A stretch of DNA of 64,000 bases, taken from assembly GCF_900114245.1 (NCBI RefSeq), contig NZ_FOSK01000009.1, positions 124,001-188,000 of the forward strand, given 5' to 3'. Made by a program: the position numbers and the translations under genes. The first letter of the stretch is position 1; each line of letters begins with the position of its first letter. Positions 48,940 to 55,056 of this stretch are shown piece after piece. The stretch comes from Pseudovibrio ascidiaceicola. GTDB taxonomy: Bacteria; Pseudomonadota; Alphaproteobacteria; Rhizobiales; Stappiaceae. Below the pieces are notes generated by a model. It made no database searches. It saw only the letters and a list, made by a program, of their open reading frames with translations, and was not told where the DNA came from.

Positions 48940-49134
48940 GGAAGGTCCGATTGCAAATCACTGAAAACTGAGAGTGGCAGATAAGAGAGGCAATGTGGCC
49001 AAGTCATGGTTCGCACTGGAAACTCTGTGAAAAGGTCACTCTGATATTCCTGTGGCGTAAGAACGCAGCGTATTTGTTTTGCTTTTCTTTGATAAAACAG
49101 ATGCTAGTGTCCGGGCCCATTCTGATCTGATTGC

Positions 49135-49160
49135 TCTATTGTGCTATAGAGCGTTTCTAT
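49135..49160 (+). promoter_or_regulatory. Composite LysR-type site, copy A (lysR)
   Basis: The pattern TCTAT-N6-ATAGA-N5-TCTAT occupies 49135-49139, 49146-49150 and 49156-49160, ending 27 bp before the lysR start codon. The first two elements form a 16-bp palindrome; the third repeats the first. This suits a LysR-type regulator site and autoregulation. Confidence 0.75.
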
Positions 49161-49187
49161 CAAGCGTTGTGTGAAGGGTGATCTTCC

Positions 49188-50090
49188 TTGGATATTCGGC
49201 AGTTACAATACCTCGTTACTCTGGCTCAAGAGCGGCATTTTACGCGTGCCGCTGCGGCTTGTAATGTGACGCAGCCAACGTTGTCGGGCCGAATTCGTCA
49301 GTTGGAGATTGAGCTGGGCGTTCCCATTATTGAGCGCGGCAAGAAGTTTCATGGACTGACGGCGGAAGGTGAGCGCATTCTCGTTTGGGCGAAGAAGGTG
49401 CTTGCGGACTGCAACAGTTTGCGAAACGAGGTTGCGGGTAAAAGTGCTGAGGTGTTTGGCAAAGTCAATATCGGCGTTATTCCGTCTGCGGATGTTGCGA
49501 CAGCCTCCCTTATTCTGGATTTGAAGAAGAGCCACCCGCATGCACATGCGACGATCCAATTGATGAGCCATGATGAAATCCATAAGGCTCTTGAGGATTA
49601 TCAGATCGATGCGGGCATCACGTACACTCAATTCAGCGATGCAAAGAAACACAGCAGTTTCACGCTGTATGAGGAAGACTATCGTCTATTCATGCCAGCA
49701 GGGCATCGCCTGCAAGGGGTCGACGCAGTGGAATGGGAGACGGCTGTGAATGCCGGGGCGATGGTGGCGCTTTCGCCGAACCTGCAAAATCGGTTGATGG
49801 TAGACAGCACGCTACGGTTTTTAGGTGTTGAGTTGGATCCTGAGATTGAGGCTGAAACGATCCCATCGCTTGGCGGGTTTATCCGTGCGGGGTACTGCGC
49901 GATCTTGCCGGAGTTTTCTGCCTTGTCGCTTGGGGCAGGGATTGTTTCCGTACCGCTGATCAAACCAGTTGTTTCGCACAGCATTGGTATGGTGATGACA
50001 AAGCGTGAGCTGGAGCCTGCGATTATCACATCCCTGGCTGATTGCGCCGCACAGTATAAGAAGCCGCTGATACCAGAGCAGGCTGATTAG
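49188..50090 (+). CDS. LysR family transcriptional regulator
   Basis: The 300-residue regulator has an N-terminal winged helix (MDIRQLQYLVTLAQERHF, then AAACNVTQPTLSGRIRQLE) and a C-terminal periplasmic-binding-like sensor domain (about 90-295). The N-terminus resembles the LysR proteins found beside formate dehydrogenase clusters as I recall them; those are related to OxyR. The start is a TTG with an AAGGGTG site; it gives the conserved family N-terminus. A composite operator lies just upstream and is repeated before two transporter genes downstream. The inducer is unknown, perhaps an organic acid. Confidence 0.93.
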   Translation: MDIRQLQYLVTLAQERHFTRAAAACNVTQPTLSGRIRQLEIELGVPIIERGKKFHGLTAEGERILVWAKKVLADCNSLRNEVAGKSAEVFGKVNIGVIPSADVATASLILDLKKSHPHAHATIQLMSHDEIHKALEDYQIDAGITYTQFSDAKKHSSFTLYEEDYRLFMPAGHRLQGVDAVEWETAVNAGAMVALSPNLQNRLMVDSTLRFLGVELDPEIEAETIPSLGGFIRAGYCAILPEFSALSLGAGIVSVPLIKPVVSHSIGMVMTKRELEPAIITSLADCAAQYKKPLIPEQAD

Positions 50091-50142
50091 CAAAGTAGCA
50101 TTGCTTTAGAGCCCGTTGTGTTCATTTACATTCACACCTCAT

Positions 50143-50212
50143 GCTCTAACTCCTTTATTCTGCGCGAGTTCTTGTCGTTTGATTGGATACAATCAAACGG
50201 AACGCGCTCTAG
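50143..50212. repeat. 70-bp REP-like palindromic element, copy 1
   Basis: The element runs from GCTCTAAC (50143) to GCTCTAG (50212) and contains a perfect 10-bp hairpin, CGTTTGATTG/CAATCAAACG (50176-50185 and 50190-50199). Its left half resembles the widespread rhizobial repeat opening. It lies between the convergent lysR and OFA genes. Confidence 0.6.
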
Positions 50213-50227
50213 AGCTGCTCATAAAAA

Positions 50228-50250
50228 AAGCCCGCGATCATCGCGGGCTT
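50228..50250 (-). terminator. Intrinsic terminator of OFA transporter gene
   Basis: AAGCCCGCGA (50228-50237) pairs with TCGCGGGCTT (50241-50250) with a 3-base loop. Reading leftward seven T residues follow. Confidence 0.9.
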
Positions 50251-50269
50251 AGTTGTTTGGGTTTGCTTT

Positions 50270-52048
50270 TTATTCAGCAGGCATTGGTGCAGATGTTTGT
50301 TTGCCAGATGCTGCCGGTTTTGTTGTTTTAGCTTCTCCTTCGCCCAGTGCGTCCTCAGCCATATGATACTTCGGATGGACTGGCTTCATGAGAAGGTTGG
50401 AAACGAGTGCCGCGACGAGCAAACCAGCCATCACATACATTGTGGTGTTGTAGAGGCTCGGAGTTGGATCAACTGTGCCTTCCGGAGCTACTTCCATCAG
50501 TCTTGAGACAGAGATGGATTTTGCTGCGATGAGCTCAGCCAGTTTCTCTTTGCCTTCGCCGAAGGTCTGGAGGAATACGGCTGGATCAACCTTTTCTGCA
50601 AGCTCATGGATTTTGGTGTTTACAGACCGTTCGCGCAGGAATGTGATGAGGAACGGACCAGCTACACCTGCTGCAGACCATGCGGTGAGCAGGCGACCAT
50701 GGATACCGCCGACGAATTTGGTGCCGAAGATATCTGCCAGATAGGCGGGGATTGTAGCGAAGCCACCGCCATACATGGTGAAGATGGTCATGGTGGCTGC
50801 GTAGAACATCACCAGCCACATCACGGATGGGCTTGCGCCTGCTTCAGCTGCGATGAGCGGAATGGAGAGGTATAGGAAAGAGCCCAGCACGAAGAAGACG
50901 GTGTAGGTGTTTTTGCGGCCAATATAGTCAGAAAGGGTTGACCAACCAAGGCGGCCCATGGCGTTGAAGACAGAGATCATCAAGACGTAGGTTGCGGTGA
51001 AGGCTCCATCCACGATGGTTGGCATGCCGTTGCCGAAGATCTCGTAGATCATGGTTTTGGAAACGGAGATCACACCGATCCCAGCTGTCACGTTGAAGCA
51101 AAGCACGATCCAGAGCTGGTAAAACTGTGGAGTCCGCAGAGCTGTATCGATGTGCACATGATTGCGAGTGATTAGACCCTGTTTGGCTGGATCTTCTTGT
51201 GGCGGTTCCCAACCTTCTGGTCTCCAGCCCGGTGCAGGAATGCGGTAGGCGAAAGATGCCAGGATCATCACGAAGAAGTAGACGATACCCAGTGTGAGGA
51301 AGGTTGATGCTGCGCCAGTGTTACCTGTGCCTGCAAGGTATACGCCTGCTTGGGCACCGTCAAAGGCTGCTTCTGCTTGAGATGCGCTTACGACGATGGC
51401 TTCCAGCTTTTGGCCTGCGACCTGCACGTAGCGGACACCGTTTTCTACGGTTGTTTGCACGTCAGCGAGTGGACCGAGATAATCAGGTGCTTTGGCGTAA
51501 AGGTTCAGAAGCCAGCTTTTCAGCGGAACTGCGATGATTGCGCCGCCGCCAAAACCCATAATGGCCATACCGGTTGCCAGACCTCGGCGGTCAGGATACC
51601 AGCGGATCAGGGTGGAGACAGGTGAAACATATCCAAGGCCGAGGCCACAACCACCAATGACACCGTACCCCAGATACAGTAGCCAGAGCTGGTGGGTCAT
51701 GATGCCAATTGAGCCGATGATGTAACCACCACCCCAGCAGAAGGCAGCTGTTGTGCCAACGCAGCGTGGGCCGACTTTTTCAAGCCACTTGCCTGCGACT
51801 GCGGCAGATAAGCCAAGAAACAGAATTGCTACAGAGAAGATCCATACCACGGAGCTGAGAGACCAGTCTTCAGCTGCGGGTGCTATGCCTCCAATTTCTC
51901 TGACAAGTGCTGGATTGTAGATACTCCATGCATAGGCAGAGCCGATGCATAGGTGAATTGCAATGGAAGCCGGTGGAACGAGCCAACGATTGAAGCCCGG
52001 CTTGGCTACGATCGCGTCTTTCAGCATAAAACTTGGTATTTTAAACAT
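50270..52048 (-). CDS. OFA family MFS transporter (oxalate/formate antiporter-like)
   Basis: The 592-residue membrane protein is a twelve-segment major facilitator of the OFA family. It has the N-terminal HLCIGSAYAWSIYNPALV, the motif-A-like WYPDRRGLATGMAIMGFGGG, and the second-half GRLGWSTLSDYIGRKNT. A long non-membrane insert lies between about 190 and 255, and a charged tail follows the last segment. OFA members exchange oxalate, formate or other carboxylates. The ATG at 52048 has a GGGG site. A copy of the LysR-type site is about 200 bp upstream, so it is a likely target of the adjacent regulator. Confidence 0.88.
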   Translation of the reverse strand: MFKIPSFMLKDAIVAKPGFNRWLVPPASIAIHLCIGSAYAWSIYNPALVREIGGIAPAAEDWSLSSVVWIFSVAILFLGLSAAVAGKWLEKVGPRCVGTTAAFCWGGGYIIGSIGIMTHQLWLLYLGYGVIGGCGLGLGYVSPVSTLIRWYPDRRGLATGMAIMGFGGGAIIAVPLKSWLLNLYAKAPDYLGPLADVQTTVENGVRYVQVAGQKLEAIVVSASQAEAAFDGAQAGVYLAGTGNTGAASTFLTLGIVYFFVMILASFAYRIPAPGWRPEGWEPPQEDPAKQGLITRNHVHIDTALRTPQFYQLWIVLCFNVTAGIGVISVSKTMIYEIFGNGMPTIVDGAFTATYVLMISVFNAMGRLGWSTLSDYIGRKNTYTVFFVLGSFLYLSIPLIAAEAGASPSVMWLVMFYAATMTIFTMYGGGFATIPAYLADIFGTKFVGGIHGRLLTAWSAAGVAGPFLITFLRERSVNTKIHELAEKVDPAVFLQTFGEGKEKLAELIAAKSISVSRLMEVAPEGTVDPTPSLYNTTMYVMAGLLVAALVSNLLMKPVHPKYHMAEDALGEGEAKTTKPAASGKQTSAPMPAE

Positions 52049-52130
52049 CAGCAAACCCCTAGAGCAATCAAAGCAGGTTGCATTGCCTCGCCCGGCAAAC
52101 TGCCTTGACCTTGTGTTGCGACTACATTCT

Positions 52131-52170
52131 TTTTCCGAAAACCGAGCCCCATTCCGGGAATGCGCCTAGG
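52131..52170. repeat. Partial REP-like element
   Basis: TTTTCCGAAAACCGAGCCCC and the following stretch to GCGCCTAGG match the right half of the rhizobial-type repeat at 60974-61043. The left half is missing or decayed. Confidence 0.5.
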
Positions 52171-52247
52171 AGGCAGGCGAGAGGGAGGAAGCCTGCATCC
52201 ATACGTTGAGTCTGCATCTAACACATGGTGAGTTGAAATCGCCAGCG

Positions 52248-52273
52248 TCTATCGCGTTATAGATGTAATCTAT
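52248..52273 (+). promoter_or_regulatory. Composite LysR-type site, copy B (OFA gene)
   Basis: TCTAT-CGCGTT-ATAGA-TGTAA-TCTAT at 52248-52273, about 200 bp upstream of the OFA transporter start. It matches copy C at 24 of 26 positions and has the same element spacing as copy A. It also holds a perfect ATAGAT-N3-ATCTAT inverted repeat. Confidence 0.75.
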
Positions 52274-52488
52274 TACAGCGTGGGTTTGTGGAGGGAAGAG
52301 AAAGGCCGAAAGCAGAGGCTAGTGCGGTGAAAAATTTGCACGCTTTGATTTATTTTGAAATATCAGATGAGTAGCGCTGCTTGGTGCTTACGAATATGCC
52401 AGATGGGTGTGAGTTTGTCATCCGTACTGTGTGTTACTGACGTCAGGTTTTACTCAGGTGCGTATTGTCGCAGTGCTTGCGGAAACGA

Positions 52489-52519
52489 AAAAAGCGCACC
52501 GCTGGGCGATGCGCTTTTT
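52489..52519. terminator. Intrinsic terminator of DUF3360 gene
   Basis: AAAAAGCGCA (52489-52498) pairs with TGCGCTTTTT (52510-52519), flanked by A and T runs. Reading leftward it follows the DUF3360 stop. Confidence 0.85.
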
Positions 52520-52539
52520 GGAATTTGGTGCGGTTCAGC

Positions 52540-54057
52540 TTACAGGAGAGCTGGAATACCTGGAAGCATGCCTACTGCTGCCATTGCCAGAGTACAGATG
52601 ATTACTGCACCTGCTGGAATGATGATGCGGTCTGCAAAGCTCAGGCGTTCTGCACGTTCCTTGTCACCAATGAGACCATTGTTGTCGAGGAACATGGTGA
52701 TTGCCCATGCCAGAACTGGGTTGGTTACGATTGCTGCGAAGATGCAGATACCAGCGGAGTTGGTGTCGTTGCTGGACTTCACCATCTGCAGGCCAGCTTC
52801 CAGAAGTGGAAGGAACACGCCAACCAGCAGAGCACAGGACATCACTGGCTGCCATACTGCTACGTCCATTGGGTAGCCGATGGTTGCGATGACGATGCAA
52901 AGTGCGCCAAGCAGGATTGCGCCAGCAGGGATTGGACGCTTCGCGATCGCAGCTGGGATCATGTAGGTGCCCCAGGAAGAAGTGATGTTACCACCGCCGA
53001 AGAATGTGCCGGTGAACTGACGCAGCGAGCAGCAGGTCATGGTGTCATCAACGTCCATCAGAACTTTATCGGTGTTCTTAGGGTAGTTGAGTTCCTGGAA
53101 GATACGGTGACCAAGGAAGTCCGGAGACCACATTGCGACTGCCAGAATTGCCCAAGGCAAAGATGCAACGAAGTGGTTGAAGCTAGGAATGCCGAGCTGC
53201 CAACCGGTCTCAGTAGATCCCCACCAGTACCATGGGTTCATGTTTGGTAGGCCAGGAGCTGTGGTGAACTGAAGGTCAACACCAGCGCCGAGTGCGAGAG
53301 CCAGAACTACCGCGATGACGGAGCAAGCTGGAATTGCGAGCCAGCGCTTACCGATCTTTGCGAGGAAGGCATAGAGCACGATGTTGACTGCAAAGATTGC
53401 CAGAGCGACGTAAGAGAGGCTGTAAGCAAGGTCATGCTTCGCCTGTAGGCCGCCAGCCCAGCTAAAGAGGGATGTGATTTGCCCCTTTGCCCCCATGAAG
53501 CCGAGGAACACGAGCAAGCCGCCTGCAACGCCCTGACTGGTCAGGTTTACCAGACGAGAGCCGCCTTTGAAGTAACTGAGAAGCAAGCCGAAGGCACAGA
53601 CGAGAGCTGCCAGCGCCAGAGGATGCGCGCCTGCGAGAGCGATAGAGCCAATGAGTGGGATCATTGGACCGTGGTTGCCCGCAAGGTTTGCGCGTGGGTT
53701 GAGGAAGCCTGAACCGATGATGCAGAAGAGCAGGGCCGGAATGAGCATCTCAACGCGGACCACTTCAATGATCCATTCAGCGCCAAGATTGACGTGCGGC
53801 CATTTTGCTGTGAGGCCGGTAGCCCATGCTGTCATAACCGCAGAGTACATCACGGAGATGCCGATTGTTCCTGCAATTGCCGGAACAAAATCTTCCATTT
53901 CAAAACGGAAGTCGCGGCCCGGCAGGTTGAGACCCCAACGGCGTGGTTTCATAATCTGGAGTTCGTGGTCTAGGTAATCAGACCGTTGTTCGAACTCACT
54001 CGCAGGCTTGTGTGCCTCGCTATAGGATTCTTCGTGCTTGTCTGTCTGCTGAAGCAT
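52540..54057 (-). CDS. DUF3360 family membrane transporter
   Basis: The 505-residue protein has about twelve hydrophobic segments and matches DUF3360, a family without proven substrate. Signatures are the N-terminal cytoplasmic HKPASEFEQRSDYLDHELQI and MKPRRWGLNLPGRDFRFEMED, then NPRANLAGNHGPMIPLI. The later FFGGGNITSSWGTYM recalls the substrate loop of nucleobase/sulfate-type carriers, to which it may be distantly related. The ATG at 54057 has GGAGA nine bases upstream; longer frames do not. A LysR-type composite site lies about 390 bp upstream, shared with the OFA gene and lysR. Confidence 0.8.
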   Translation of the reverse strand: MLQQTDKHEESYSEAHKPASEFEQRSDYLDHELQIMKPRRWGLNLPGRDFRFEMEDFVPAIAGTIGISVMYSAVMTAWATGLTAKWPHVNLGAEWIIEVVRVEMLIPALLFCIIGSGFLNPRANLAGNHGPMIPLIGSIALAGAHPLALAALVCAFGLLLSYFKGGSRLVNLTSQGVAGGLLVFLGFMGAKGQITSLFSWAGGLQAKHDLAYSLSYVALAIFAVNIVLYAFLAKIGKRWLAIPACSVIAVVLALALGAGVDLQFTTAPGLPNMNPWYWWGSTETGWQLGIPSFNHFVASLPWAILAVAMWSPDFLGHRIFQELNYPKNTDKVLMDVDDTMTCCSLRQFTGTFFGGGNITSSWGTYMIPAAIAKRPIPAGAILLGALCIVIATIGYPMDVAVWQPVMSCALLVGVFLPLLEAGLQMVKSSNDTNSAGICIFAAIVTNPVLAWAITMFLDNNGLIGDKERAERLSFADRIIIPAGAVIICTLAMAAVGMLPGIPALL

Positions 54058-55056
54058 AACAGCCATTCTCCATAAAACTGACGGGAGAAAGGAGAGTGTG
54101 GCTTCACGGTGCTTGCTTTGTGAGCGAAGCAGATGAAGGCATCTCACCTCATGGCCTTGATTTCTGGTTTGCTGGGAGGAGTTGGAACCGTCAGGATTTT
54201 TGGGTTTTGAGTTGCAGCTTAATGGGAGGTGTTAAAGTGCAACTGCGTCAGCGGCTTCAAACTCGCTGTAACTTTCCTTCCGGGTTCCTGGGTCTTTTCA
54301 AGAGACCTTGCAAACCACAAATTCAGACCATGAATACCCTTCCCCTGTTCTTCAGTTCCGAAAGGCCCCTACCTGAAATGACGTAGGGAAGCTTACGGTG
54401 TTCAGCGAGAACTTGCAGAAGGATGCAGCTTAAATAAAATCGTATGAGTCTATCGCGTTATTGATGAAATCTATAAGGCGAAAAACTGCGACAATATGAG
54501 CTATCTAATTGATTTTGTTGAATTGCCCCGGTTTTGAGTTCAGTGAAATTTCAGTCTGCAATATCTCATTTAAAACAATAGTATAATGAAATTAATTCAG
54601 TTGGAGCGTGTGTTAAGGCTGATGAAAAACGTGATCTGAGAGTCACATCCTGTCGCGGTAGAATGACTTATAGGTAGTATTGTCGCAGCGTTGTGGGAAT
54701 GTGCGATACAAGTGTTTTTCCGAGTTTAAATGATGCGTCACAGATACCAAGTTGGCGCCATGCAAGGCTAAATTGCAGTTCTACTATGGTGCACTTCCAT
54801 GCTCCGAGGATATCTTGATAAGAAAAAACTTGGCTGCCCTCTACTTTTGGCGTAGATAGGCGATCCATCCTGCCGGACTTTTCTGCGGGCTCGTCACGGG
54901 CCTTCAAATTTTCACTTCCCAGTAACCTCAAAAATCATCGGACCGATTTGTTACGTCTGTTTGCTGAGAAGTTTAACCGAGTTTCTGTAGGATTTGAGAT
55001 TAAAGCGTGTTGGTGCACTCGCCAGAGGCGAAGCCCATCTGAAAATGAGAGATATT
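54058..55056. other. 1-kb divergent gap between DUF3360 and trkH genes
   Basis: The left part would be a long leader of the DUF3360 gene and includes a small GGTCT/AGACC hairpin near 54291-54307. The middle holds composite site copy C. The stretch around 54500-54650 is AT-rich. A leftward frame at 54668-54931 has no recognisable product. No RNA gene is evident. Confidence 0.5.
54449..54474 (+). promoter_or_regulatory. Composite LysR-type site, copy C (DUF3360 gene)
   Basis: TCTAT-CGCGTT-ATTGA-TGAAA-TCTAT at 54449-54474. It differs from copy B at two of 26 positions. It lies about 390 bp before the DUF3360 start and about 580 bp before trkH on the other side, so the DUF3360 gene is the nearer and likelier target. 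Confidence 0.72.

Follow-up and report, generated by a model that had tools for sequence, protein, structure and literature searches.

A predicted LysR operator shared by lysR, an OFA-type transporter gene and a DUF3360 gene in Pseudovibrio, and its possible link to formate

The window analyzed here is a 64,000-nucleotide stretch of the genome of the marine bacterium Pseudovibrio ascidiaceicola (contig NZ_FOSK01000009.1, positions 124,001 to 188,000 of the forward strand). It contains three predicted operators, sites A, B and C, which precede a lysR gene, an OFA-type MFS transporter gene and a gene encoding a DUF3360 membrane protein, respectively. With respect to operator and regulator, it is very probable that the three genes form a conserved LysR regulon. 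The interpretation towards which we lean is that the LysR responds to formate and controls its own gene together with the genes of the OFA-type and DUF3360 proteins; binding, ligand, direction of control and transported substrate are what we infer from the sequences. Taken separately, formate is the probable signal of the LysR, and it is close to an even bet that formate is also the cargo of DUF3360. The features, in positions of the window, are the following.

lysR: 49188..50090, + strand, LysR-type regulator of 300 amino acids with a TTG start (PF00126 and PF03466)
Site A: 49125..49160, + strand, predicted 36-bp LysR operator before lysR, 27 bp to the lysR start codon; strong box ATAGAGCGTTTCTAT at 49146-49160, weak box ATCTGATTGCTCTAT at 49125-49139
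OFA-type MFS gene: 50270..52054, − strand, 594 amino acids from a TTG start, with an ATG 6 bases inward (PF07690)
Site B: 52238..52273, − strand, predicted 36-bp operator before the OFA gene; gene-distal strong box at 52259-52273, gene-side weak box at 52238-52252
DUF3360 membrane protein gene: 52540..54057, − strand, ATG at 54057, reading frame open to 54147 (PF11840, 935.9 bits)
Site C: 54439..54474, − strand, predicted 36-bp operator before the DUF3360 gene; strong box ATTG-N7-CTAT at 54460-54474, gene-side weak box at 54439-54453

Architecture of the operators

Sites A (49135-49160) and B (52248-52273) contain the exact 26-bp pattern TCTAT-N6-ATAGA-N5-TCTAT. The original prediction gave this pattern for three copies of identical spacing; its coordinates are correct throughout, but site C (54449-54474) has one mismatch, its middle half-site reading ATTGA instead of ATAGA. 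The copies are identical at 18 of 26 bases for A and B, at 17 for A and C, and at 24 for B and C, the last value being the one given previously and reproduced by a recount. The earlier assignments of the three genes as lysR, OFA-type MFS and DUF3360 also hold by the domain matches listed above.

Every site has, 10 bp to the left of the pattern, an additional and weaker half-site that the original prediction overlooked; in the window, this fourth element is ATCG or ATCT, and the full site B reads ATCG-N7-CTAT, N6, ATAG-N7-CTAT. The motif ATAG-N7-CTAT is a T-N11-A box, exact in A and B and changed to ATTG-N7-CTAT in C. The recognition unit of LysR regulators is usually T-N11-A in an imperfect dyad near target promoters (PMC8407307), and this arrangement is found at A, B and C. 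The site had been described as a 16-bp palindrome, TCTAT-N6-ATAGA, with a third half-site. The palindrome has been rejected as the recognition unit, because decayed and distant copies retain ATAG-N7-CTAT: the box survives in site A of the Pseudovibrio genome G007, at the OFA gene of genome G001, and in Aureimonas and Azospirillum, and it stands alone before focA in G001. The anchor of the site is probably this strong box, accompanied by a weaker box 6 bp away.

At the OFA and DUF3360 genes, the weak box is the one nearer to the gene and the strong box the one farther from it. At lysR the order is reversed, with the strong box on the gene side. A weak box on the gene side of the strong box is the usual layout for inducer-dependent activation by LysR regulators. 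The orientation of the boxes thus suggests activation of the transporter genes and self-repression of lysR. A LysR tetramer would hold the two adjacent boxes, the strong ATAG-N7-CTAT and the weaker one 6 bp from it. This layout would enable inducer-dependent activation of the OFA and DUF3360 genes, whose weak box is on the gene side, and self-repression through the strong box located 27 bp upstream of the lysR start codon. Formate would thereby induce its own uptake or export: the OFA-type protein may move formate or a monocarboxylate related to it, and DUF3360 would fill the role that FocA has in related species.

Occurrence and conservation of the operators

Only A, B and C match the 26-bp pattern with at most one mismatch in the genome of 5,845,495 bases; the high genome-wide frequency that the original prediction had named as a refutation is not seen. 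The raw number of matches does not exceed that of a reversed-pattern control, with three real against 2 + 1 control matches at up to one mismatch and eight against nine at up to two mismatches. Therefore, the case for the operators rests on their clustering, position and conservation. By a simple estimate, the chance that all three copies fall within 5.3 kb before three neighboring genes is about 2.5e-6. At up to two mismatches, the window contains one additional match (52238-52263, − strand), and this is site B again, shifted by one half-site; shuffled versions of the window contained on average 0.01 matches at this threshold.

A 36-bp matrix has been built from 32 sites, including A, B and C themselves and excluding the regions upstream of lysR in genomes G001 and G014, where the best match has six mismatches. 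In a scan of the genome that scored 150 of 962 first-look candidates, A, B and C were found at E values of 3.5e-7 to 2.5e-6 and the next match at an E value of 0.6. A wider regulon was considered and rejected, since no further site fell below E 0.6 among the candidates scored. The genome contains four perfect 16-bp TCTAT-N6-ATAGA palindromes, two of which belong to A and B and two to contigs C29 and C34. The palindrome on C29 (222298-222313, in L006:1501-1526) is flanked on one side by another LysR gene and on the other by a gene that resembles dctQ of TRAP systems by eye and has no NCBIfam match; it may be the own site of this adjoining LysR.

The comparison within the genus included 16 Pseudovibrio genomes, and in ten of these the lysR orthologue reaches an identity of 85% or more. 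Copies of the 26-bp pattern with at most one mismatch are present in 11 of the 16 genomes, and 25 of the 27 places where they occur are at the lysR, OFA and DUF3360 locus. Among the ten genomes with the lysR orthologue, site A is retained with at most two mismatches in eight, site B with at most two in nine (three mismatches in G003), and site C with at most one in all ten. The site upstream of the OFA gene is also present in G014 (one mismatch) and in G001 (three mismatches, strong box intact). The proposal of a LysR-type site common to lysR and the two transporter genes is supported by this conservation before orthologues, which had been named as a test of it, and by the absence of the site from the rest of the genome.

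In a ranking of local conservation based on seven of the ten genomes, site B is fifth of 450 windows, site A 25th of 225 and site C 115th of 811. Site C ranks low because the leader of the DUF3360 gene is conserved throughout. This leader (54058-54440, − strand), which is about 300-390 bases long, is well conserved in Pseudovibrio beyond the operator, and it matches no Rfam family at E values up to 5. It is very improbable that the three sites reflect chance likeness and a recent duplication, B and C being copies of one stretch and A a coincidence. Such an origin would fit the near-identity of B and C, the equality of the raw genome count with the reversed-pattern control, and the positions of A and C below the top of the local ranking. 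However, B stands out from its flanks, and both A and B are found again at orthologous loci whose proteins are as little as 85% identical. In addition, G001 and G014 have kept the OFA site, and similar boxes occur in other bacterial orders.

The LysR regulator and its relatives

The neighboring LysR is the best candidate for the regulator of A, B and C, which would be its operators. It is favored because the sites are present in the ten genomes with lysR and missing before DUF3360 in those without it: in all three genomes that have DUF3360 and lack the lysR orthologue (G008, G011 and G012), no box with at most one mismatch precedes DUF3360. The protein has orthologues of at least 85% identity in nine other Pseudovibrio genomes and diverged ones in G001 (49%) and G014 (42%), in which residues 25-40 of the DNA-binding domain are unchanged.

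An alternative is that the sites belong to another LysR-type regulator, for instance OxyR, which would control the neighboring lysR simply as a target gene. The spacing within ATAG-N7-CTAT is common to OxyR operators, and the genome has many LysR paralogues (36 matches). OxyR operators have a middle spacing of N7; by contrast, that of A, B and C is N6, one of their outer elements is weak, and the genes that they precede encode transporters. The OxyR operator consists of four ATAG-like elements at steps of about 10 bp that are read by a LysR tetramer (PMC3953959), an arrangement resembling A, B and C. This alternative is nonetheless improbable: the sites accompany lysR in ten genomes and are lacking before DUF3360 in the three without it, no other candidate scored with the matrix fell below E 0.6, perfect boxes adjoin some relatives of the LysR, and the LysR itself scores far under the cut-off of the OxyR equivalog model (104.2 of 329 bits).

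In a phylogenetic tree of 28 rows, the LysR lies inside a 23-row branch (support 100/99) that holds all 13 LysRs labelled as linked to formate dehydrogenase (FDH); the FDH rows were picked from matches to the query LysR itself, the tree has only five outgroup rows and includes no other named LysR family, and one row, G054, adjoins NuoE/NuoF-like genes that have not been confirmed as FDH. The cluster of G053 passes the FDH-alpha model with 894.8 bits. The fork next to the 23-row branch is supported by only 85/93. The seven sampled transporter-linked LysRs are united with support of 100/100. A focA-linked type of LysR falls outside the FDH-labelled branch. This second type (MRYSLKQ...) adjoins focA in other Pseudovibrio and in a Shewanella, and DUF3360 in a Motilimonas, and thus connects focA with DUF3360 in one more way; its genes are located at L257:7239-8141, L258:8896-9822, L131:4575-5480 and L128:6904-7917.

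FdsR of Cupriavidus necator is a regulator of the LysR type. It is formate-inducible, 4.5-fold (PMC7057948). As in the systems of FdsR and other FDH-linked LysRs, homologues of the locus LysR adjoin fds genes, some together with an OFA gene, and ATAG-N7-CTAT boxes occur in some of these clusters. The locus LysR has the LysR domains and the kinship with FDH-linked LysRs expected of an FdsR-type regulator, as judged by its domain matches and the 28-row tree of homologues. However, its gene stands beside the OFA and DUF3360 genes instead of fds genes, and the fds operon of the genome is on another contig and has its own LysR, which is 31% identical to the locus LysR. Therefore, the protein has been classed as a relative of FdsR and not as FdsR. 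It is kin to regulators located beside FDH genes and most likely senses formate.

Formate dehydrogenase clusters and the box

An FDH gene is present in 10 of 12 annotated plasmid regions surrounding LysR homologues, that of Shinella being an NAD-dependent FDH; the regions of Sphingobium and Pukyongiella are without one. The 12 regions were chosen from 30 listed matches among 2,749 records, leaving aside the unannotated regions L228, L280 and L291. Aureimonas and Ponticoccus have lysR, OFA and fds genes together in one cluster, whereas Palleronia has a cluster of OFA with fds; the OFA genes of Leisingera, Bradyrhizobium and Caballeronia do not adjoin fds. The occurrence of relatives of both the LysR and the OFA-type protein in FDH clusters allows a formate theme to be proposed for the locus.

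A perfect ATAG-N7-CTAT box is present in 3 of 23 intergenic regions of FDH-type clusters, compared with 0.024 expected from base frequencies. In Aureimonas the box is located between lysR and OFA, in Azospirillum ramasamyi between lysR and fdsG, and in Novosphingobium upstream of lysR. G053 has an additional perfect box at a distance of 90-120 bp from fdsG, on its upstream side. Nine of ten Pseudovibrio genomes examined have a box upstream of fdsG, which is ATAG-N7-CAAT in eight of them and perfect in G005; G003, in which the start of fdsG was not found, is outside this count. The FDH-alpha model is passed in exactly those 10 of the 16 Pseudovibrio genomes that have the lysR orthologue of at least 85% identity.

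DUF3360, the focA slot and pflB

The DUF3360 protein matches PF11840 alone at E values up to 0.001, the FNT domain PF01226 not being among its matches, and its sequence matches no solved structure at E values up to 10. A structure model of moderate quality (pLDDT 62.6, pTM 0.60) has been compared with known folds using Foldseek. Nearly all of the best 50 of 565 matches are of the UraA, NAT, SLC26 and SLC4 kind; an exception among these 50 is AdiC (rank 23, TM 0.23). With moderate confidence, a UraA/NAT/SLC26/SLC4-like fold is predicted from the model. Proteins of this 7+7 inverted-repeat transporter fold include anion exchangers, and some SLC26 members exchange formate.

In the ten lysR genomes, DUF3360 occupies the slot between trkH and OFA. 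The protein encoded in the same slot of G001 and G014 passes the FocA equivalog model, with 374.8 and 379.6 bits, respectively, against a cut-off of 290.1, and in G001 a perfect box is positioned 122 bp before focA. Each of the 16 Pseudovibrio genomes has a DUF3360 or an FNT gene, and all 16 have pyruvate formate-lyase; among the ten genomes with lysR, six are without an FNT match. FO-BEG1 and JE062, two strains of the genus that may differ from those of the 16 genomes, ferment and excrete formate (PMC3806328).

Among the 80 of 198 DUF3360 relatives that were covered, those outside Pseudovibrio belong to Vibrio, Aliivibrio, Shewanella, Ferrimonas, Psychromonas, Agarivorans, Motilimonas and Thaumasiovibrio. 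Among the 72 gammaproteobacterial loci in this set, 64 have pflB near DUF3360: downstream on the same strand at a distance of 136-865 bp in 55, at 1.2-2.0 kb in four Psychromonas loci, and 2.6-2.9 kb off on the other side of DUF3360 in five Ferrimonas loci. The eight loci without pflB comprise four of Motilimonas and four in which the contig ends within about 0.5 kb. The arrangement recalls enterobacterial focA-pflB, where a membrane protein gene also directly precedes pflB, and the slot of DUF3360 is taken by focA itself in two Pseudovibrio genomes. Formate channels are known to be linked to pflBA (PMC5525234). Unlike FocA, however, DUF3360 is not an FNT channel but a PF11840 protein whose model resembles UraA and SLC26.

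A tentative proposal, for which the prospects are somewhat short of even, is that the DUF3360 proteins, with a fold like that of UraA and SLC26, transport formate and represent a new family for this function, analogous and not homologous to FocA. It would stand in the place of focA under a formate-sensing operator in Pseudovibrio, and would be the transporter of a pfl operon in Vibrio and its relatives.

Several other arrangements were observed around these genes. At the Psychromonas marina locus L191, DUF3360 is followed at about 1.1-2.0 kb by a focA gene of the same orientation, which separates it from pflB. In G008 (L254:2780-5165) and G012 (L256:3008-5378), which are of the P. exalbescens type, DUF3360 is near a yjjI-yjjW pair encoding a glycyl-radical enzyme and its activase, as checked with the YjjI and YjjW models on L254; this neighborhood is possibly another link to formate or to radical enzymes. 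Long FocA-like proteins of about 490-520 amino acids are encoded at L131:5555-7126 and L257:8396-9859, and in that of Shewanella a CBS domain comes after the FNT domain.

Arguments against a formate-responsive regulon

The sites, their conservation, their co-distribution with lysR, the kin of the regulator and the gene contexts are read directly from the sequences, whereas binding, ligand, activation or repression and the transported substrate are at one remove from them. This and the following points weigh against a formate-responsive regulon, as does the composition of the LysR tree given above. At the level of the operator, site A is degenerate in G015 (four mismatches) and in G007 (five mismatches), the lysR-upstream regions of G001 and G014 have no site, and no box precedes focA in G014. 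No sigma-70 consensus promoter fitting the layout was found, the region containing five matches against 4.2 expected. In the FDH clusters, two of the 23 intergenic regions have a single mismatch to the box, and 18 have at least two; lysR-fds regions with at least two mismatches are those of Paracoccus, Ruegeria, Haematobacter, Rhizobium, Novosphingobium and Ponticoccus. The fds boxes may serve the other LysR genes beside them. For C. necator FdsR, one series of constructs had no significant formate induction (PMC7057948).

The role of DUF3360 as a counterpart of FocA is also questioned by their co-occurrence. Three Pseudovibrio genomes, G008, G011 and G012, have DUF3360 and an FNT protein, and focA is present at 5 of the 72 gammaproteobacterial DUF3360 loci. 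The genomes of 48 of these loci were searched for FocA, which is above the cut-off in 47; a genome-wide mutual exclusion of DUF3360 and FocA is thus not seen in gammaproteobacteria. The presence of FocA alongside DUF3360 implies that DUF3360 is no simple substitute for it there, and gammaproteobacterial DUF3360 may carry something else tied to pyruvate cleavage.

The OFA-type protein narrowly misses the model of the L-lactate transporter SfMCT (NF049980; 312.5 bits, cut-off 320) and fails TIGR00890 (168 of 374.85 bits) and TIGR04259 (115.5 of 335 bits). It is thus nearest to the L-lactate model and far under the oxalate/formate models, and the name OFA applies to it only broadly, as in the annotations of its homologues. 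These scores bear on an explanation in which the operator and regulon are real, and the signal and cargo are another monocarboxylate, such as lactate or pyruvate. The OFA-type protein would then be a lactate permease, and DUF3360 would export a fermentation acid other than formate. Besides the SfMCT score, such an explanation draws on the coexistence of FocA with DUF3360 in gammaproteobacteria, on the pflB context, which suits any acid of pyruvate metabolism, and on the fermentation of Pseudovibrio, which yields lactate and acetate too (PMC3806328). It is set against the FDH genes accompanying LysR homologues in 10 of 12 annotated regions, the focA genes in the DUF3360 slot of G001 and G014, and the same kind of box before fdsG, and we regard it as rather unlikely.

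Implications for Pseudovibrio and the DUF3360 family

A literature search, which covered mostly papers outside subscription journals, found none on DUF3360, none joining a LysR with an MFS transporter of the OFA family, and none joining oxalate formate antiporter, formate dehydrogenase, LysR and regulon. The orphan DUF3360 family is tied to formate in three ways: by the shared operator, by the focA slot and by the neighborhood of pflB. This would provide a first predicted job for a transporter family of unknown function, and a candidate reason why some members of Pseudovibrio, a genus with formate-excreting strains, are without an FNT channel. If the prediction is true, direct tests would become possible of how fermenting bacteria that lack FocA export formate, and of what DUF3360 does in many marine gammaproteobacteria.

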